Virus record (IMG/VR): IMGVR_UViG_3300027337_000026
Location: 1 to 25,262 of that record
Strand: one strand, 5' to 3'
DNA: 25,262 nt
Source: a virus
Made by a program: the position numbers and the translations under genes. Below the pieces are notes generated by a model that worked only from the letters and a program-made list of their open reading frames with translations, was not told the DNA's origin and ran no database searches. Shown piece after piece: positions 2,779 to 24,750 of this stretch (positions are counted from its first letter, which is position 1; every line of letters starts with the position of its first letter).

Positions 2779-4959
2779 TTAAACTGGGCCGCCTTCGAGC
2801 TTTTTCATGAGCTTGTACATGCGCGCCGCACCTTTGCGACGACTTCCACCACCAGCGTTGCGAACTGCCCTGGCTGTGAAGACAAACTCCCCGTCGGACA
2901 GCATTGCAGGAATGTCATCAGAGGTCCCGGTGCCAGGGCCGCTGATAGGACCGTTTCGACGAGGAAAATTCGTCGGCTCAGGAATGCCACCTTTAGCCAG
3001 TTGTTGAGGACGCCCATCCGGCCCATAAATCAGGGGGACACCGTACAAACCGGCTATGTTGTAGGGCTGTGCAATGCCTGCAGGGCTGCTTGTGATTCCG
3101 CCAGGCCTAATCATTCCCGGACTTCCAATCGGAATGGTGGCATAAGACGGAGTCTCAACAATCGGGCTTCTAGGGCCTGAAGGAGGCGTGTATCGATCAA
3201 GTCCGCCAGCAAACTGGTCAGGGTTATCTCTTAGGTAATCCGAACCGGTGTAGTTTCGGTTGTAAAGAGGATTCTGGTTTGGTTGCTCTGCCTCAAACCC
3301 GCCAAGGGCGGCCGTCGCTGCCACCCCAGTGGCTGCCAACGGGCCGTACTTGGTGAACATGCCTGCACCAGGCCCCACGCCAGGGCGACTTGGCGAGAGG
3401 TACTCACTATACAGGTCCTTGGCCCCGGTAACCATCTTGTCGATGAAACCAGGCGATGAAGCAGGAGTTGCGGCGCCCCGTGGCAGCAGGCTATAGTTGG
3501 TGGTTCCGCTGGTTCCGCCCGCTGCGCTGGAAAGATCAGCCGCCCCCAAAGAGCCCGGAAGTCGAACACCAAGGCCGGGTTCGCCGCTGGAGCCGGCCGG
3601 CGCAAGGCCGTAGTTGGTTGCGGTCCCGGTCCCACCTGCCGCCGTGGAAAAGTCGGCTGGGCTGTAACTGGTCCGGAAAGCATTTGCTCCGTCGAACCGA
3701 CCGGTGAGTCCGGTCTCCCCGGAAAACCGATTGGGGTTAAGACCTTGGCCGGTCAACAGGTCCTGTGCCGTGCCAGTTGGGCCAACGGCTCCTGTTGCGC
3801 TGATGGGACCAGGTGCAGTTGCATCCCCACTACTTGCAAACCTGCCTGTAGCATCTGCAGGAGTGCCTTCTGCGCTGCCTGCTTGGCCTCCCTCACCAGG
3901 GCTCAGGCCTTTTAATGCCCCTGCTGTAACGCCAGATGTCAGGCCCATCTTCAAGGCGTCTGCCGTGCTCATGCCGCCCAACTTGCCAATGCCAGCGCCA
4001 ATTAAGCCCGTGGCAAGGCCCGTGTTCAACGCGCCGCCTGCCGCGCCTGGCAGGTACTGGCCAAGAGAGGCAACAGGGCTTGCGCCCATGATCGTGCCGC
4101 CGCCGCCAACATAGCCCAGCGCGCCAGAGATCAAGGCATCCTTCATGGAACCGCCGGCCAAAAGGGTCGTTCCTGCGCCAGCCAGGCCTGCTGCGGTGCC
4201 CATGGAAAGGCCCACGCCTGCTGGTCCGAGGACCGTGGCCAGTGCGATGGTGCCCAAGATGCGCCCAACAGGGCTTTTGAGCACGTCTTTGACGACGTTC
4301 ACAACACCTTTGACCACGCCCTTAACAGCGTCCACAATGCCGCCAAGAGGACCACCCTTAAACTCAGGTAGGCCAGTAGCGGGGTTGATCGTGCCCGAGC
4401 CACCATGGCGCTTGAGCATCGCAGCTTCTTCAGGCGTAATGTGGGCCAGGATAGAGTCGCCACCCCGACCTTTTGCAGCCAGATAGGACGCCACGTCGGC
4501 CAGGCCGCCAGAGGCCATGCCCACGGGCTGCAGCCCTTCGACGATAGGGGACATGTCCATGGGCTCTTGAGCACCAGCGCCCTGCATCTGCCGCATCTCT
4601 TGTAACACCGCGAGCATTGCGCCAATGAACTCAGGATCGTATTCTTCAGGCATGTCCCCTTCGTCCAGGGCACCCCCTTCAATCATTTTTTGGACCAGGT
4701 TTTTGTAGTCACCAGGATGTTGGCTGACGTATTCAAAAACCTGGATCAGAAGGTCAAGCTGCTCGGGCGTAAGTTGAAGGTCGCCGATGTTTTGGCGAAG
4801 GGCCTCCTTTAGCGCTGCTTGCTCGCCAGGGTTGACCATGCCAAGCGCAGTTTGCGCGGCGTCATACGAATCAGCACTTGTAACGGCCGGTCGTTGTTGG
4901 GCCTCTTCGCCCTGCATGCCCATGCCGCCGGGCATAGACATGATTCCTTCATTTGCCAT
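2779..4959 (-). CDS. DNA-ejection / internal virion-type protein, 726 aa
   Basis: The N-terminus has a helical domain (LTPEQLDLLIQVFEYVSQHP; GDMPEEYDPEFIGAMLAVLQ) and the segment KGRGGDSILAHITPEEAAML, followed by NPATGLPEF. Residues about 203-360 are Gly/Ala-rich and hydrophobic (SPVGRILGTIALATVLGPAG; TAAGLAGAGTTLLAGG), as expected for a protein that must enter a membrane during ejection. The middle is Gly/Thr/Pro-rich; a C-terminal motif (674-726) reads GTSDDIPAMLSDGEFVFTAR followed by RNAGGGSRRKGAARMYKLMK. This C-terminal motif is shared by many phage proteins assigned to internal virion or ejection roles. AAGGACC lies before the ATG. Confidence 0.68.
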   Translation of the reverse strand: MANEGIMSMPGGMGMQGEEAQQRPAVTSADSYDAAQTALGMVNPGEQAALKEALRQNIGDLQLTPEQLDLLIQVFEYVSQHPGDYKNLVQKMIEGGALDEGDMPEEYDPEFIGAMLAVLQEMRQMQGAGAQEPMDMSPIVEGLQPVGMASGGLADVASYLAAKGRGGDSILAHITPEEAAMLKRHGGSGTINPATGLPEFKGGPLGGIVDAVKGVVKGVVNVVKDVLKSPVGRILGTIALATVLGPAGVGLSMGTAAGLAGAGTTLLAGGSMKDALISGALGYVGGGGTIMGASPVASLGQYLPGAAGGALNTGLATGLIGAGIGKLGGMSTADALKMGLTSGVTAGALKGLSPGEGGQAGSAEGTPADATGRFASSGDATAPGPISATGAVGPTGTAQDLLTGQGLNPNRFSGETGLTGRFDGANAFRTSYSPADFSTAAGGTGTATNYGLAPAGSSGEPGLGVRLPGSLGAADLSSAAGGTSGTTNYSLLPRGAATPASSPGFIDKMVTGAKDLYSEYLSPSRPGVGPGAGMFTKYGPLAATGVAATAALGGFEAEQPNQNPLYNRNYTGSDYLRDNPDQFAGGLDRYTPPSGPRSPIVETPSYATIPIGSPGMIRPGGITSSPAGIAQPYNIAGLYGVPLIYGPDGRPQQLAKGGIPEPTNFPRRNGPISGPGTGTSDDIPAMLSDGEFVFTARAVRNAGGGSRRKGAARMYKLMKKLEGGPV

Positions 4960-11209: not shown

Positions 11210-14200
11210 TTACATCAACAGCAAGAACCTGCCGCCGCCGCCACCACTCGCAAAGCCAATCCATCCCGTGTTATTGCCCCCGTCGACGTTACCAGCCCCG
11301 GTTGCATCCCACGTTGCCCCACCGGTAGCATATGAATCTGTAATGCTGAGGTATGTTGGCGAGATTGTTCCAGAGGAATCTGACAAAGTGAACTGTGCGC
11401 CAGGAGTGCTACTGTTAATCGCAACCAAATTCCCAAAAGTGCCCGACAGCCCAAAATTAGACACGGTCTGCGTTGTTCCAGCAGTAAAAGTTACCGTGGC
11501 AGGCTGCGTGGTATTGGTGATGTTGTTGAAGGTGTTGGAGCCGCTGATGGTCAACGCCCCAGTACCGCCTTGATTAAGGTTGTAATAGGTTAAGCCGCCA
11601 CCAGCAAAAGTTTTTGCCGATGCGCTTGTCATAGATACGGTGGATGTACTTGGATTAAGAGCTAGGCCCGTCGTGGTGGCCGTGCTCCACACAGACGCGC
11701 CAGAGCCAGAAAGTGTCCAAGTACCACTGCCCATGTTTAAGGTACGAGTATTGCTGTTGCTTGAAACAAAAGAATCTGTCGTAACATTAAAATTTGCAGC
11801 GGTAAATGTGCCTGAAGTAAGGGACAAACTACCGGCGGAAGAAAGAGCATCAGCAAGCGTTACGGTAGTGCCAGAGCCAGAAATCTGGATGTCGCTGAGC
11901 GTTTTACCATTACTTGTGATTGTCCCAGAAGCCTGAAAAGATGGGTTAACGGCTGTGTAAGTTCCGCCAGGGTCCAAAGTCAGATCACCCGCCATGCGCA
12001 ATAGGGTTGTGACCGAGACGGTGCAGGTAGAGCCGGTAAATATGAGGTTTTTAAACCATGAGTTGTTAATTGTTAACGTGGACGTCCCCGCATTAACTGT
12101 TAGGTTTGGTGCGTTTGATGTTGAGCCGCCGAGGCCGCCAAATGACACCGTTGCGGTTGCCGCCTGATTGCGGGTAAAAGCACCCACTCCTGTCCAAGTA
12201 AAGTTAGTAGCATCCGACATACCTAACACAGTCGTTGAAGCAGTTGTGCTGGTAAGTGCAATGTTGCCAGTGCCAAAAGCAATTGCTCGGGTGCTTGATC
12301 CGGAGGAGGAAAAGTTGCCCGTGCTTAAATTAAACCCGGCAAGATTAAGCGTACCGTTAGTCAGTGTGGCAGTGCTAGTTGTCCCAAGCGTCATGGCATC
12401 AGCAAGAGTATATGTGGCGCCAGAACCGGTGAAAGCAGCGGAACTAAGGGTTTTACCATTACTTGTGATTGTCCCAGAAGCCTGAAAAATTGTGCCGACC
12501 GTGGTGTAAGTTCCGCCAGGGTCTAAAGTCAAATTACCGGCTATGTTAACTGAACCGCTTGCCATCGAGACGGTGCAGGGAGAGCCTGTAAAGTCAAGGT
12601 TTTTAAACCATGAACTGCTGGTAATTGTTAGCGTGGACGTCCCCGCATTAACTGTTAGGTTTGGTGCGTTTGATGTACTGCCGCCGGCAGTTGAACCAAA
12701 CTGAACAGTGGCTGTAGCCGCCTGATTGCGGATAAAACCACCTGTACCTGTAAAGGTAAATCCGCTGGCTGTTGACATACCTAACACAGCCGTTGCACTG
12801 GTGGTGCTTGTTAATACAATATTTTGAGACCCGAAAGAAATTGCCCGTGTACTGGCGCCAGAGGAGCTAAAGCTACCAGTGCTTAACGTAAACCCATTAA
12901 GATCAAGAGTACCGGTATTTAATGTAAAAGTACGATTTGCAGCAATAGTGCAAGCATCAGCAAGAGTTATAGTGTCACTTGTTGAATTGCTGACTACGAC
13001 GCTGTTAAGCGTTTTGCCTGAGCTTGTGATTGTGGCGCTTGCAAGGAATGTAACAGGAAGCGCCGTATAAGTACCACCAGAAGCCAGGGTCAAATTACCG
13101 GACAGATTAACACCGCTGGTCGAGCTTACTGTAACAGTGCTTGTGGAGCCTGTAAAGACAAGGTTTTTAAAATATGAACCGCTGGTAATTGTTAGCGTGG
13201 ACGCCCCCGCATTGACTGTTAGGTTTGGTGCGTTTGATGCACTGCCGCCGGCACTTGAACCAAATGTCGCCGTTGCAGATGCCGCCATGTTTCTGGTAAA
13301 ACCGCCTGTACCTGTAAAGGTAAATCCGTTGGCTGTTGCCATGCTCAACATAGTTGATCCAGCGGTTGTAGTGGTGAGTGCAATGTTTCCTGAGCCAAAA
13401 TCAATTACACGAGCATTTGAGTTGCTAGAACTAAAAGTGTTAGTGCTTAAAGTAAATCCCGCGAGGGCAAGAGTACCGGCACTCAGTGTGGTGGCCTGCG
13501 AGACCGTCATTGCACCCGCAAGCGTCACCGTGCCATTTGGGCTAAGAATAGTAATGATATGAGGAAACGTAATTCCAGCAGGAGTAATTGATTGCGCAGT
13601 GCCACCAGAAAAAGTAATTGCTCCGGTTCCGGTTAGTGTGACGCCAGTGCCATTAATCCAATTGCCAATAACATCGAATGATAATGTGCTTGTAGCCAAT
13701 GTCATTGCGCTGGTGCGCCCAGACATGTCAAGAGTTCCAATTAGATAATCGTCGTTGAGTGTGATCGTGCCTGTAACACTGCCCGCCGTGTTGTCAAACA
13801 CCGCAGTATCTTGCGCTAAAGGAAAATTGTTTACAGCCGGAGAGCCACCAGAGGAAGTGGCCCAACCTGTTGCAGACCAGCTTTGTGCGCCAGAAAGGTT
13901 CCAGTAAACTGTTTTGGCAGCAGGAAAGGTAATGCCGCTGTTATTCCCACCGTTACCAAGACGAGTTCCCGTAGCTGGAGCAGCAGCGCCTGAAATTGTT
14001 ATATTTTGGAAGTCTGTGTCAATTAACGACACCGCTGCACAAGTTAAAGTGCGGACAACAAGACCCCCACTAGACCTAAGACATATGCGAGAGACAGCAC
14101 TTGTCCCTGTTGATGTCGTTAATGTTCCCGCAACTGTTTGATCTCCAGAAAAAACAACATCCATAAATGCTGCGGTTGATGCCCCAGTAAACGAAAGATT

Positions 14201-14911
14201 GTTAAACGAGTTATTACCAGTGATGGATATGCTACCGGTCGTACCTGTTGGCCAACTGACATTGTAGTAAGTAAAACCCGCACTGAGGAAGTCGCCAACA
14301 CCAGTAATAACAATTGTTGAGGTGTTTGCGTTCAACGTCAGGTTAGTACCTGTGGATGTAGACCAAAGAGTACCGCCGCCTGTTGATGTCATAGTCCAAG
14401 TGCCAGACCCCATCGTAAGGGTTCTAAGGTTGGAATTGCTAGAAGTAAAAGTACTAGCAGTGACGTTAAAATTGTTGGCGTTCAGTGTTCCATAAGTCAG
14501 CGTCAGCGTGCTGCTAGAAGTAAACGCATCGCCTAGTGTAACGGTGATGCCTGAAGCATTGACAATGACTGAACCAAAGGTTTTTCCTGCGCTGGTAATC
14601 GTTCCAGTGCCAGCGATTGTCATACCGCCGGTGTAGGACATTGTCATACCCGACACAAGCGTCACGCTACCAGAAACAGTTATGTTGGCTGTTCCAGTTA
14701 GTGTCCCTGTAAAACCTGTACAAGTAATCGATTTTGCCCCTGTATTACCAGTTGCAATCGTCACAACACCAGTTGAGTTTGCATCAAAAAACACATCGTC
14801 AGCAGAAGTAGGTACAGTCTGACCACCAGCACCACCAGAGGTCAGCGCCCATTTGGTACCAGCAGTGCCGTTCCATTGGTCTGACCCGCCCACCCAATAC
14901 CTGTTTGCCAT
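11210..14911 (-). CDS. giant repeat-built adhesin-like tail or fibre protein
   Basis: This is a 1233-residue, Thr/Ser/Gly-rich, almost Lys-free protein with the strand-turn rhythm of a beta-helix (TITSSGKTL, LNGFTLSTGSFSSSG, NLTVNAGTSTLTI). It opens MANRYWVGGSDQWNGTAGTK and contains SADDVFFDANSTG near 37-49, a start pattern seen in other phage appendage proteins. Residues about 480-1050 hold three similar segments of about 185 residues, marked by NAPNLTVNAG near 560, 747 and 932. Segments at both ends (MGSGTWT, TYYN, then FNN) resemble each other. The end is VDGGNNTGWIGFASGGGGGR. It probably binds the cell surface or shapes a fibre. GCAGGAG lies six bases before the start. No enzymatic motif is seen. 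Confidence 0.72.
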   Translation of the reverse strand: MANRYWVGGSDQWNGTAGTKWALTSGGAGGQTVPTSADDVFFDANSTGVVTIATGNTGAKSITCTGFTGTLTGTANITVSGSVTLVSGMTMSYTGGMTIAGTGTITSAGKTFGSVIVNASGITVTLGDAFTSSSTLTLTYGTLNANNFNVTASTFTSSNSNLRTLTMGSGTWTMTSTGGGTLWSTSTGTNLTLNANTSTIVITGVGDFLSAGFTYYNVSWPTGTTGSISITGNNSFNNLSFTGASTAAFMDVVFSGDQTVAGTLTTSTGTSAVSRICLRSSGGLVVRTLTCAAVSLIDTDFQNITISGAAAPATGTRLGNGGNNSGITFPAAKTVYWNLSGAQSWSATGWATSSGGSPAVNNFPLAQDTAVFDNTAGSVTGTITLNDDYLIGTLDMSGRTSAMTLATSTLSFDVIGNWINGTGVTLTGTGAITFSGGTAQSITPAGITFPHIITILSPNGTVTLAGAMTVSQATTLSAGTLALAGFTLSTNTFSSSNSNARVIDFGSGNIALTTTTAGSTMLSMATANGFTFTGTGGFTRNMAASATATFGSSAGGSASNAPNLTVNAGASTLTITSGSYFKNLVFTGSTSTVTVSSTSGVNLSGNLTLASGGTYTALPVTFLASATITSSGKTLNSVVVSNSTSDTITLADACTIAANRTFTLNTGTLDLNGFTLSTGSFSSSGASTRAISFGSQNIVLTSTTSATAVLGMSTASGFTFTGTGGFIRNQAATATVQFGSTAGGSTSNAPNLTVNAGTSTLTITSSSWFKNLDFTGSPCTVSMASGSVNIAGNLTLDPGGTYTTVGTIFQASGTITSNGKTLSSAAFTGSGATYTLADAMTLGTTSTATLTNGTLNLAGFNLSTGNFSSSGSSTRAIAFGTGNIALTSTTASTTVLGMSDATNFTWTGVGAFTRNQAATATVSFGGLGGSTSNAPNLTVNAGTSTLTINNSWFKNLIFTGSTCTVSVTTLLRMAGDLTLDPGGTYTAVNPSFQASGTITSNGKTLSDIQISGSGTTVTLADALSSAGSLSLTSGTFTAANFNVTTDSFVSSNSNTRTLNMGSGTWTLSGSGASVWSTATTTGLALNPSTSTVSMTSASAKTFAGGGLTYYNLNQGGTGALTISGSNTFNNITNTTQPATVTFTAGTTQTVSNFGLSGTFGNLVAINSSTPGAQFTLSDSSGTISPTYLSITDSYATGGATWDATGAGNVDGGNNTGWIGFASGGGGGRFLLLM
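11760..13470 (-). repeat. three imperfect repeats of about 545-565 bp inside the adhesin gene
   Basis: The marker sequence encoding NAPNLTVNAG recurs near 13200-13231, 12636-12672 and 12081-12116, giving periods of about 564 and 555 bp. Flanking sequences match as well. A 39-base block is identical at 11901-11939 and 12450-12488, and a third, diverged version lies near 13008. Some blocks are nearly identical in DNA while others differ strongly, as expected for duplication with partial gene conversion. Confidence 0.85.
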
Positions 14912-21063: not shown

Positions 21064-21972
21064 TTAGGCTGCGCCAGGCGAGCCAAAGATGCCACGCGGG
21101 TCGCTGAAGCCGAAGCTGTAGCGCTCGCGAGCCTTGTAGCGCACGTTGCCGGTGTCGAAGTCGCCTTCGAACGCGGTTTTCAACGAAACGCGCTCAAACA
21201 TCTTCATGCCGTTGGGAGCGTCGGTCTTGATGAACCATGCGTCCGGATCGGTCAGGAAGTGGTTGACCACGTAACCCTGGGGAACCATGCCCATGTTGCG
21301 GACAGCGTTGATGTCGTTGTCAGCGGTGCCAACACGCAGAGTGGACTTCAGGATACGGTCGCCCGTGAACTGCAGTTCCTTCGGCAGAATCAGCTTCAGG
21401 CCCTGGACAGCGATCTTCAGGCCACGTTCATCGGTGAACGCGGCGATGTCGATCAGCGCCTGCTCCAGAGAGGTCTCGGACAGGTCAGCGGCCGTAGCCA
21501 GGGTGTTGGACAGGTTGGGACCAGTCAGGGTGGGGTGGTTGGTTGCGCACAGAGCAACACCGTCGCCACCAATAGAGGTGGTGAAGGCGCCGTTCAGCAC
21601 AGCCGCAGCCTTAATCTGCTTGGTTTGGGCCATCGAGCGGGCCAGGGCCTTGGTGTAGCGGGCTGACAGACGGTCGTAGAGGTTGTCCTCCACGGCTTCT
21701 TCGGTCAGCGAGAACGCCAAAGCAATGGTCTCGTGGGTGTAACGAGCGGTGTACACCTCTTGCGCCTGGTCGTAGCCGACGCCAGCGCCTTCGGTTTTCA
21801 CCGGAGCTTCTGCAAAGCCCGACTCCATCACTTCCTCTTCGAATGCACGATCAGAAGTTTCGACGGAATAGATTTGCAGGTGCTCGTTCTCGTAGTTTTT
21901 GTACTCAAGACCGAACAGAGCATTGAGACCAGGCTCAAGCTCTTTCACCAGTTGTGCACGTGAAATAGCCAT
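21064..21972 (-). CDS. major capsid protein (HK97-fold, Mu gpT-like)
   Basis: This 302-residue protein forms the icosahedral shell. Visible features are an N-terminal helix (SRAQLVKELEPGLNALFG), a segment EVYTARYTHETIALAFSLTE (72-91) followed by the long helix DNLYDRLSARYTKALARSMAQTKQ (spine-helix position), and the motif ALCATNHPTLTG (139-150) that is typical of Mu gpT-like coat proteins. The end, VRYKARERYSFGFSDPRGIFG, also fits the P-domain/C-terminus of this group. No N-terminal prohead-protease delta domain is apparent, which agrees with a separate scaffold. A perfect AAGGAG sits seven bases upstream of the ATG, and a strong terminator follows the stop, both consistent with high expression. 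Confidence 0.88.
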   Translation of the reverse strand: MAISRAQLVKELEPGLNALFGLEYKNYENEHLQIYSVETSDRAFEEEVMESGFAEAPVKTEGAGVGYDQAQEVYTARYTHETIALAFSLTEEAVEDNLYDRLSARYTKALARSMAQTKQIKAAAVLNGAFTTSIGGDGVALCATNHPTLTGPNLSNTLATAADLSETSLEQALIDIAAFTDERGLKIAVQGLKLILPKELQFTGDRILKSTLRVGTADNDINAVRNMGMVPQGYVVNHFLTDPDAWFIKTDAPNGMKMFERVSLKTAFEGDFDTGNVRYKARERYSFGFSDPRGIFGSPGAA

Positions 21973-21983
21973 GGTTGATCTCC

Positions 21984-22565
21984 TTAGGTGCTAAAGCCCG
22001 GCGTGCCAGTGCTGCCGTACATGTGCTCATTGATCATCACAACGAGAACGGCGTATTGGCCCATCTCATTGCCCGGTACGTTCCACAGGCCAACGGCCTT
22101 CAGGTTGGCAGTTGCTGCCTCAGTGAAGGTGCCGCTCATGGTCATGTTGGACAAGCCAGTCGTGGTGCTACCCGTGGTAGAGGCCGTGATATCAGCGTTG
22201 GTGCCGATATTGGCTTGCGTGGGAGTGCCAGCGTTCTGGATGATAAACAACTGACTGGGATCGTCGATCACGTCAGCCACGATCTGGCCAGCGGTGATGT
22301 TGACGGAACCAGGATAGTAGTTTTTCCAAGTCGGCTTGCCGGTAGTGGGATCAATGTAATTGCATCCATTGAACACGCCTACGGCCACGGTGTGGTTCGT
22401 GTTGTTAAATTTGACCAAGTAACCATTGTCAATGGTCACCAGATCACCCTGATAGATCGCCCCGGACTGGTTATCAGCAATCAAGTATCCGTACTGTTTT
22501 TGACCACCAGTAGCGGAGAGATTGCCGAGAGGACGCAGACCAAAAGGCTTATTTACGTTTGCCAT
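21984..22565 (-). CDS. capsid-associated structural protein, possible decoration protein
   Basis: This is a 193-residue beta-rich protein beginning MANVNKPFGLRPLGNLSATG, with many Gly/Thr/Asn residues, a segment VAVGVFNGCNYIDPTTGKP in the middle and a VLVVMINEHMYG end. Proteins starting MANVN.PFGLRP are found next to the major capsid protein in many phages and behave as abundant structural proteins; a head-decoration or capsid-stabilising role is plausible. No catalytic motif is visible. AAGGAA lies about seven bases before the ATG. It is followed after 11 nt by the capsid gene. Confidence 0.65.
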   Translation of the reverse strand: MANVNKPFGLRPLGNLSATGGQKQYGYLIADNQSGAIYQGDLVTIDNGYLVKFNNTNHTVAVGVFNGCNYIDPTTGKPTWKNYYPGSVNITAGQIVADVIDDPSQLFIIQNAGTPTQANIGTNADITASTTGSTTTGLSNMTMSGTFTEAATANLKAVGLWNVPGNEMGQYAVLVVMINEHMYGSTGTPGFST

Positions 22566-22591: not shown

Positions 22592-23071
22592 TCACTGGCC
22601 GCGAGAGCCACCGAATGAAACGCGGGACTGGCGTGTAGGCTTCTGAATGGTCATGGTGTTGTGTGCATTCGCTTTCATCAGCTCATTGTCGACAGCCTGC
22701 AATTGGTCGTTCGCACGAGAGTTGTAATACGCATTGCGCTCTTGAACCGTTTCCTTGGGAATACGTGCTAGGAGCAGACCTCCCACGCTGATCACACCAG
22801 CATGTCGGCCGTCTTCTACTGTTGGAACCTGGTAGTCAGGGTACTCGTCGCCGCGAACCAGCTCATACCCCTCACGGAGTTTTCCAGCCACGTTCGTGCG
22901 GTCTTCTACCCCACCTGCTTCGGCCCGAATCCAACGGTGCTCGAATCCCGGAGGCGCGGGAGGCGCGTCCAGACGAGAAGGCGGTGCCCAGGGCTTGCGT
23001 CGCGCATCTTTTTCACGCGATTCGGACGCGCGAGCAGTGCGATTAAGAACGGGAATTTTAACGTCAGCCAT
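22592..23071 (-). CDS. conserved phage head-module protein, unknown function
   Basis: This is a 159-residue soluble protein. It has a basic N-terminus (RASESREKDARRKPWAPPSR), the motif FEHRWIRAEAGGVEDRTNV (43-61), then KLREGYELVRGDEYPD and a small hydrophobic stretch GVISVGGLLLARIP around 89-102; the end is basic and disordered. Proteins with the pattern APP..LD.PP.P.GF.HRWIR are common between scaffold and capsid genes in aquatic phages. I infer a virion or assembly role from location only. AAGGAG lies six bases before the ATG, and the gene begins three bases after the scaffold stop. Confidence 0.7.
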   Translation of the reverse strand: MADVKIPVLNRTARASESREKDARRKPWAPPSRLDAPPAPPGFEHRWIRAEAGGVEDRTNVAGKLREGYELVRGDEYPDYQVPTVEDGRHAGVISVGGLLLARIPKETVQERNAYYNSRANDQLQAVDNELMKANAHNTMTIQKPTRQSRVSFGGSRGQ

Positions 23072-23074
23072 GTT

Positions 23075-23977
23075 TTACTCCTTCACGTATTTGGCGTATT
23101 CCTCAAGAGGAACACCCAGCTTTTTGGCAATTGCAACTTGACTTGGGGTCAATTTGACAGTGCGGCGTGCATTGTTGATACCCGATGATCGGGATGCAGG
23201 TGCCACCGTTTGCACGGATCGGGCGGCCCTGTTAGTTTGCGCCTGATTTCCACCCCCCAATTTATTCGGGAAAGTTTGTTTCAAGCGGTTGTCAAGCTCA
23301 TCATAATACGCATCGCTGTTGGGGTCAAACCCCTCAACCTGAATCAACTGGCGATGGATGCCCCAAGCGGCATGTGTCATGGCAGTGTCGCGCCCGTACC
23401 ACGGATTGCGCTCGGCCCAGTCTTCCACCCGAGGATCAACCTCCTGTTGGACCTGAACTTGGGGCTGCATTGCGGCCTGTTGGGCGGCAACCTGCTGCTG
23501 GTATGCCCACTCCTGAGCCTGCTGCTCGCGCTGTTGGGTCGCTGCAGCAATCTGGCTTTGCTCCATGGTCATTGCTGCCAGGCGCTGTTGGGCTTCGGTC
23601 TCGGTGTCAATGTCGCCCTCTTCGCGCGCCTTGCGAATAATCTGCTTGAGCGCCACAACCTGGGTCTGAACACGGCTGTTGGCCTCGCCCAAGCGCTCCG
23701 TGTCTACGTGCATGTACTGCTGCTCAAGCTGGGTAGCTCTTGCCTGCACGTTTCTGGCGTAATCCAAGGCAGCCTGCTCACGCCGCTGGGTCTCGCGCAG
23801 GCGAGCCGTCAGCTTGTCAATGCGCTTCTTGACGCCCTCACTGTACTGATCCAGTTCGCTGCCGCCAGAGCTTTGCTGCTCCGGTTTGCTGACGACTTCG
23901 GCCGTTCCGTCCTCGGCAACGGCTACCGTAGCCGGACTCTCGTCCTCGCCAATCTTAAATTCCAATTGCTCGTTCAT
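23075..23977 (-). CDS. capsid scaffolding-like protein
   Basis: This is a 300-residue, mostly helical protein. It has an acidic N-terminus (1-45), a long coiled-coil/Gln-rich centre (about 46-180, with YSEGVKKRIDKLTARLRE and many QQ), the motif DWAERNPWYG (186-195), then GFDPNSDAYYDELDNRL, and a basic C-terminus with RRTVKLTPSQVAIAKKLGVP (271-290). Length, coiled coil, basic C-terminal tail and location directly upstream of the capsid genes match phage scaffolding proteins, whose C-terminal basic segment contacts the coat protein. The NPWYG-containing segment recurs in scaffold-like proteins of uncultured phages. The start is supported by AAAGGAG eight bases upstream. I see no protease domain. 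Confidence 0.75.
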   Translation of the reverse strand: MNEQLEFKIGEDESPATVAVAEDGTAEVVSKPEQQSSGGSELDQYSEGVKKRIDKLTARLRETQRREQAALDYARNVQARATQLEQQYMHVDTERLGEANSRVQTQVVALKQIIRKAREEGDIDTETEAQQRLAAMTMEQSQIAAATQQREQQAQEWAYQQQVAAQQAAMQPQVQVQQEVDPRVEDWAERNPWYGRDTAMTHAAWGIHRQLIQVEGFDPNSDAYYDELDNRLKQTFPNKLGGGNQAQTNRAARSVQTVAPASRSSGINNARRTVKLTPSQVAIAKKLGVPLEEYAKYVKE

Positions 23978-23989
23978 AGAAGCGCTCCT

Positions 23990-24481
23990 TTACATGTGCA
24001 GAATGTCTTCGGGACTGTTCACGACAGCCAAAACCTCATCGTCGTTCAACAGACGAATCTCACCCCCGTCGATTGGGATGCGAGCACCCGCATATCGACC
24101 GAAAATGATCCAGTCACCCTTCTTGCACCAAGGGCCGGCAGGGAACTTGCCCTCGTCCGCGTATGCAAGATCGCCCATCTTCAGCACGTAGCCACACACG
24201 GTGGCCAACTGCGTCTTACGCTGGGTTTCTTCGGCCAGGACAATGCCTCCCTTGGATTTTTCAGCGCCACGATAGGGCAGGATGGCAATACGCCACCCGG
24301 TAGGGGTTGGTATGGTGTCGATGACGGCCTGATCGAGCTTCTCAGGGTCAAACCCAAGCTCGGTGTAGGCGTCTTCCAGCACAGGCCCTTTGGCTGCAGC
24401 TTCCTCAGCCCATTTTCTTTCCAACGCAGTGAGTTGGAGGGCTGGAGCTTCAACAGATACAGTAGCGTCAGAACTTTCCAT
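23990..24481 (-). CDS. GroES-type co-chaperonin (Cpn10 fold) with N-terminal extension
   Basis: Residues 58-163 read as a Cpn10 domain. PTPTGWRIAILPYRG opens the first strand, RGAEKSKGGIVLAEET (71-86) matches the GroES mobile loop including the Ile-Val-Leu that docks on GroEL, and KKGDWIIFGRYAGARI followed by NDDEVLAVV matches the second half of the barrel. A GroES caps the host GroEL chamber; phage versions such as T4 gp31 are needed to fold the major capsid protein, which fits the scaffold and capsid genes just downstream. Unlike a bacterial GroES of about 97 residues, this protein has about 57 extra N-terminal residues (charged, helical). I chose ATG 24481 over the in-frame ATG 24514 because AGGA sits correctly before it and the longer form would overlap the previous gene. 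Confidence 0.85.
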   Translation of the reverse strand: MESSDATVSVEAPALQLTALERKWAEEAAAKGPVLEDAYTELGFDPEKLDQAVIDTIPTPTGWRIAILPYRGAEKSKGGIVLAEETQRKTQLATVCGYVLKMGDLAYADEGKFPAGPWCKKGDWIIFGRYAGARIPIDGGEIRLLNDDEVLAVVNSPEDILHM

Positions 24482-24491
24482 GGGCTTCCTT

Positions 24492-24692
24492 TTAGTTAAT
24501 GAGGTCTTCGTCATCCGTGACCTTCTTTAGAAGCTCTTTCACGGAATCTTCTACCATCCTCATACCCTCAAGGCGACCCATCATGAAGCGATAACGCTCC
24601 ATGTCTGTAATGGTGCCGTTCAAGACAATCTGCTTGGACTGTTCCTGAAGTTTTCTGATCTCTTTCAGAACTGCTTCTGCAAATTCGAGCAT
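24492..24692 (-). CDS. small coiled-coil phage protein, unknown function
   Basis: This is a 66-residue acidic, alpha-helical protein (MLEFAEAVLKEIRKLQEQSK at the start, KELLKKVTDDEDLIN at the end) with a heptad-like Leu/Ile pattern and no Cys. A longer form from a GTG at 24728 is possible, but the ATG at 24692 has GGA eight bases upstream, and the extra 12 residues look unrelated to the helical body. Small proteins with this pattern (LEF.EA...EI..L, then Y....GRLEG) occur between portal and scaffold genes in uncultured podovirus-like phages. The function is unknown. Its stop codon is immediately followed by the ribosome-binding site of the co-chaperonin gene. Confidence 0.7.
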   Translation of the reverse strand: MLEFAEAVLKEIRKLQEQSKQIVLNGTITDMERYRFMMGRLEGMRMVEDSVKELLKKVTDDEDLIN

Positions 24693-24750
24693 GGTAATTC
24701 CATGAAATGCAGGTGGATTTGGCCCCACCCGTTGGCACGGTTGACAGTGA

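Follow-up and report, generated by a model that had tools for sequence, protein, structure and literature searches.

Why does a phage encode, directly ahead of its head genes, a GroES-type co-chaperonin of its own, and what is added by the 56 or so residues that precede its Cpn10 domain? The question is raised by a 25,262-base virus record (the window, i.e., the whole stretch of DNA analysed), in which the gene occupies 23990..24481 on the minus strand, exactly the interval given in the preliminary description, and specifies 163 amino acids from its ATG. A plus-strand reading of this interval was dropped, as that frame is unrelated to GroES.

The GroES gene and its Cpn10 domain

The window protein certainly contains a Cpn10/GroES domain, which extends over residues ~60–154. 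Profile searches with the window GroES matched Pfam PF00166 (E 2.4e-9; 37.5 bits, the cut-off being 21.1) and PHROG 3188, “co-chaperonin GroES” (E 2.1e-17), so that the identity proposed earlier from the letters is borne out by profiles and, further, by the predicted fold. All 15 NCBIfam GroES models listed score below their own cut-offs (the best, 46.2 bits against 120), which is expected of a divergent form. The AF2 model has a mean pLDDT of 80.8, with most of the barrel blocks above 90. VIA-align places this predicted model on GroES structures, the best match being the GroEL-bound GroES of 8wuc (Z 10.1, rmsd 2.6, 91 residues aligned), and Foldseek also puts it on GroES structures (E 3.6e-7); by VIA-align, residue 57 of the model corresponds to chain residue 2 of the GroES structure.

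The Ile-Val-Leu triplet noted in the preliminary description is found within GGIVL at residues 78–82, in the mobile-loop region (24203..24265, minus strand; residues 73–93 taken as the loop). In an alignment of 106 family members (35–90% identity to the window GroES), 89 rows fit the loop pattern; between GGIVL and the following strand, 87 of these have 14 residues and two have 15 (E. coli GroES has 10), a count that leaves out the other 17 rows, where alanine replaces the end glycine in nine of the 10 shown. The four-residue difference after GGIVL is visible in all three alignments with GroES (PDB) that were displayed. The triplet itself is IVL in 41 of the 89 pattern-fitting members and mostly hydrophobic in the rest.

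The window GroES thus resembles bacterial GroES in its Cpn10 barrel, in the GGIVL edge and in a roof-length segment, recognised in sequence alignments, and goes beyond it by 56 N-terminal residues, a nine-residue C-terminal tail and four more residues after GGIVL. The tail, NSPEDILHM (residues 155–163; 23993..24019, minus strand), is conserved: the exact ending PEDILHM occurs in 44 of the 106 rows, while a loose pattern fits 99 of them but also lets in the differing PRG-type tails of the Planktothrix-phage branch.

The N-terminal extension and its translation

The extension (residues 1–56; 24314..24481, minus strand) constitutes the 56–57 residues ahead of PxPxGW, where the chain enters the barrel. 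The preliminary description spoke of about 57 charged residues, of which the length holds and the charge only in part: charged residues make up about 30% and are mainly acidic (13 D/E and four K/R within residues 2–57).

An earlier dN/dS run was saturated, and close pairs were therefore used (245 pairs from 54 sequences). Residues 2–16 gave a dN/dS of 0.647 (bootstrap 0.487–0.829) and residues 17–56 one of 0.080 (0.063–0.100), near the 0.065 of the GroES core (0.051–0.080); the C-terminal tail gave 0.028 (0.004–0.086). Behind a weakly constrained tip, a 40-residue module (residues 17–56) is therefore kept nearly as strictly as the adjoining Cpn10 core. The 106-row alignment has mostly gaps in the tip, a moderately conserved module, and a well-conserved PxPxGW block and C-terminal tail.

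Two segments stand out within the module, TALERKWxxE (residues 18–31; 24389..24430, minus strand) and the more widely shared LxxAY...DP (residues 35–46; 24344..24379, minus strand). TALERKWxxE and LxDAY...DPxKL are common to the close members, and deeper members often retain the second half alone (e.g., AY...EDRVLDPxxL...RMPxPTGW). Among 101 extensions, the motif LxxA[YFW] was counted in 76, where shuffling would give 5.2; the figure is descriptive only, as relatedness inflates the count. The AF2 models of two divergent members each include a first short helix (residues 19–30 in the window protein, 19–26 in the other) and a second one just before the barrel (51–56 and 42–47, respectively); the first helix of the window model is predicted with moderate confidence (block pLDDT 60–70), and the second member's model is weaker (71.3 overall, with two of five models near 44). 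VIA-align with the whole predicted model listed no fold that matches residues 1–33 by themselves. The extension as a known domain was rejected, there being no PHROG match and, in Pfam, DUF3014 alone (E 0.13).

The ATG at 24481 is preceded by a Shine-Dalgarno-like AAAAGGA (24487..24493, minus strand), with comparable sites in relatives. A matching ATG or GTG with a Shine-Dalgarno-like site was found in 80 loci of relatives, in a survey whose script used such sites as one criterion in choosing starts; for L055 and L060, its choice fell on an ATG further upstream despite the matching ATG being present. A longer GroES reading, to 24514, was rejected: it runs into the gene upstream, and relatives do not generally share its start.

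The ~56 residues of the extension are both translated and under selection. Initiation near residue 55, on the absence of which the earlier proposal had been made to depend, is contradicted by the purifying selection on residues 17–56 and by the ATG at 24481, matched together with its Shine-Dalgarno-like site in close relatives. That the extension is untranslated and the true start lies further inside is hardly credible: possible alternative start codons do exist in the window, TTG at residue 20 and GTG at residue 34, but the low dN/dS runs across residues 17–56, the starts match in relatives (albeit partly picked by their Shine-Dalgarno-like sites), and Val occupies position 34 in none of 18 other representatives.

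The head cassette and its distribution

In the window, the gene order of the preliminary description, i.e., a phage GroES directly before a putative scaffold with the capsid gene soon after, is confirmed. On the same (minus) strand, GroES is followed by a 300-aa protein (23075..23977; phrog_28737), whose ATG lies 12 nt after the GroES stop and which we call a putative scaffolding protein on the basis of position and size, by proteins of 159 aa (22592..23071; phrog_36003) and 193 aa (21984..22565; phrog_37556), and by the 302-aa major capsid protein (21064..21972; PF25209, E 3.5e-13; phrog_371). Among PDB sequences, no relatives were found for the capsid protein or the 193-aa protein, and the best matches of the putative scaffold were at E 0.8 and 0.88.

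GroES, the putative scaffold, the two small proteins and the major capsid protein constitute a conserved phage head cassette. In the loci found by GroES, counted with near-duplicates, the putative scaffold comes next in 188 of 196 by a distance rule; in seven of the eight exceptions, the scaffold frame is there, its stop-to-stop frame starting before the GroES stop, and the eighth, a remote match (L219), is without scaffold. In the same set, the capsid gene lies downstream in 120 of 121 loci and the portal gene upstream in 127 of 128. Such counts are circular, the loci having been found by GroES, and the capsid protein was used as a bait for a non-circular re-test: this GroES was present, 2394–2717 nt before the capsid gene, in every one of the 69 loci that reach at least 3 kb upstream, the capsids being 73–100% identical to that of the window and some of the contigs shared with the GroES-seeded set. 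In 66 of the 68 measurable capsid-seeded loci, at least 30 residues separate the first in-frame Met from PxPxG.

At the junction of the first two cassette genes, the GroES stop overlaps the AAAGGAG site of the putative scaffold (23975–23995), and translational coupling is possible. In one contig (L080, ~3758–4894), the GroES frame shifts at its very end, meets no stop and stays open across the putative scaffold as far as the end of the contig; a sequencing error is possible in this single instance. Directly ahead of GroES lies a 78-aa gene (24492–24728), relatives of which precede GroES in many loci; it has a sub-threshold match to the Pfam RnlB antitoxin (E 0.02) and a match to phrog_32603 (E 6.3e-5).

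The nearest named relative of the window GroES is that of the lake-water Phage DSL-LC04 (75% identical across 91% of the query), followed by those of the pelagiphages HTVC027P (48% over 99%), 023Pt_psg01 and HTVC023P. In the annotated genomes of DSL-LC04, HTVC027P (gp55), HTVC023P (gp36), 023Pt_psg01 and Pag-Yong1, the same GroES stands ahead of the same genes for ~300, ~160 and ~190 aa and for the capsid protein, while the MinM2 record stops before the capsid gene. At 30–35% GroES identity, CRP-901, RW and three spring-water phages have similarly sized genes after GroES, although none of these genes in RW is named capsid. The capsid proteins of eight of these named phages, and of ct2os315, are 40–90% identical to that of the window. 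In IMG/VR, at least 593 records encode a relative, among the 600 pattern matches listed. Extended forms of 139–155 aa, entered as “Co-chaperonin GroES [uncultured virus]”, also occur in UniProt/BFVD, where they align with the model across the extension.

All 34 matches in bacterial or archaeal genome assemblies (L225–L258, one labelled Pacearchaeota) adjoin phage head or packaging genes, namely relatives of the scaffold, capsid, portal or terminase; they are probably mis-binned or infecting phage DNA, and a bacterial origin of the extended GroES was rejected.

The extension differs much in length and sequence between lineages. Those of the marine pelagiphages are richer in lysine than that of the window and lack TALERKW, and have mainly the stretch near PxPxGW in common with it. 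In two phages that share the gene order, GroES measures 107 and 111 aa and is nearly leaderless, and others of that order have GroES of 134–151 aa with different leaders. The gene order is thus more widespread than the extension, and the extension, variable and nearly absent in some of these phages, is not needed for basic function.

The presence of GroES in such phages is already known: the available text of PMC9599517 counts it among the core genes of HTVC023P-type pelagiphages, and that of PMC10149686 marks it on the CRP-901 genome maps. The selected N-terminal module, the PEDILHM tail and the four-residue-longer loop segment are apparently undescribed, no description of them having been found in the literature searched. 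An ISME J 2017 study of virioplankton chaperonins reportedly may already describe extended viral GroES.

Function of the extended co-chaperonin

We consider it probable that the protein is a phage lid of the GroES type, produced from the head operon, that caps host GroEL in place of host GroES for the folding of head proteins. Homology, the predicted fold, the intact loop triplet, the conserved head cassette and the selection on both module and tail support the lid, as does a search for Cpn60 (GroEL) in 25 long records, in which none was found, while the control found it in 14 of 14 genomes. Each of the 25 has one Cpn10; all were found via GroES, 20 being uncultured records of unstated completeness and five named phage records described as complete, and a phage-encoded GroEL was rejected on this count (0 of 25). 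The head-operon location and the absence of phage GroEL are only consistent with a role in folding the capsid protein on host GroEL; heptamer formation, host GroEL as the partner and the capsid protein as the client are what we infer. It speaks against this reading that the capsid protein, at 302 aa, should, unlike T4 gp23, be accommodated by an ordinary GroEL–GroES cage.

Seven copies would form a dome that caps host GroEL, and phage head proteins, of which the abundant major capsid protein is the most likely client, would fold there and enter assembly. In the GroES architecture, the N-terminus of one subunit adjoins the C-terminus of its neighbour at the rim. The extension, which most likely sits at the dome rim as a short ordered appendage, and the C-terminal tail could therefore act jointly, in stabilising the ring or in adapting the cage to a phage client, and the two selected appendages could make one structure, repeated seven times. 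The occurrence of GroES in all 69 of the capsid-seeded loci tested suggests a general re-tooling of the host chaperonin for head assembly by these phages; being defined parts that can be removed, the conserved appendages offer a way to find out how this is done.

Possible, though we hold it only tentatively, is an extra supply of GroES where the host's own pool becomes limiting in the course of infection; the extension would then stabilise the ring or serve regulation without being specific for a client. An ordinary Cpn10 core that has kept the roof-length segment, unlike gp31, and an extension varying among lineages would suit such a role, but a gene that sits inside the head operon and is present in 69 of 69 capsid-seeded loci and a module about as constrained as the core speak against it.

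T4 gp31 and RB49 CocO, cited in the preliminary description (gp31) and supported here as analogues, are phage Cpn10 proteins that replace GroES on host GroEL in capsid folding, gp31 serving the folding of gp23 (available part of PMC3012670). They match the window GroES in fold (VIA Z 7.5–7.9) at 8–10% identity, and gp31 is absent from the phmmer matches of the window GroES at E 0.1. Residue 5 of gp31 aligns with residue 53 of the model, and gp31 therefore lacks a comparable N-terminal module. A longer mobile loop is common to both: 22 residues in gp31 against 16 in GroES, according to the accessible portion of PMC6318259, and 14 against 10 after GGIVL in the window family. An enlarged cage of the gp31 kind, in which the longer loop would lift the lid and the extension line or widen the chamber for a phage client, draws on this likeness, with the loop count confined to the 89 pattern-fitting of 106 members; we find it doubtful, since gp31 has no roof loops (same portion of PMC6318259), whereas the window GroES retains a roof-length segment, and since the capsid protein is small.

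The preliminary description suggested that the extension could be a docking arm that brings the GroEL–lid complex to the scaffold or capsid protein. Gene adjacency throughout the family and selection on the predicted TALERKWxxE helix fit this idea, and an earlier co-evolution run, without the portal, favoured the scaffold (partial correlation 0.223 against 0.027–0.092 for the other three proteins). In the fuller run, distances over the conserved 40 residues of the extension were compared with those of the cassette proteins in 67 loci, after correction for the GroES core and for the remaining proteins, the portal among them. The partial correlations were 0.066 for the scaffold and 0.020 for the capsid, no better than the portal (0.065), and 0.154 and 0.159 for the 159- and 193-aa proteins; subsampling ranges include or touch zero for all but the 193-aa protein (0.04–0.28), and, distance-based co-evolution tests being weak, neither run can demonstrate contact. 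Co-evolution of the extension was accordingly not specific for scaffold or capsid, and the slightly higher value of the 193-aa protein offers no more than a lead. With almost no extension in some phages of the same gene order besides, we regard the docking arm as unlikely.

Quite improbable, in our judgement, is a phage-specific collar, made of the N-terminal module and the PEDILHM tail, that would bind a head protein and couple folding on GroEL to prohead assembly; if true, a chaperonin lid would have been turned into an assembly hub. A lid that caps or blocks another host ring, e.g., ClpP in the manner of chloroplast co-chaperonins, or that inhibits host GroEL, is very improbable: compared with the PDB, the family profile does match best the Cpn20 subunit in 7ekq, a Chlamydomonas ClpP complex (E 1.1e-12), but Thermus and further GroES are close behind in that list, and the head-operon position points to assembly.

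Elsewhere in the window, a 338-aa frame truncated at the record end (1–1014) ends in MQQQNMQQP repeats, at which the assembly possibly broke, and a repetitive Thr/Ser/Gly-rich protein of 1233 aa (11210–14911) lies among the presumed tail genes.
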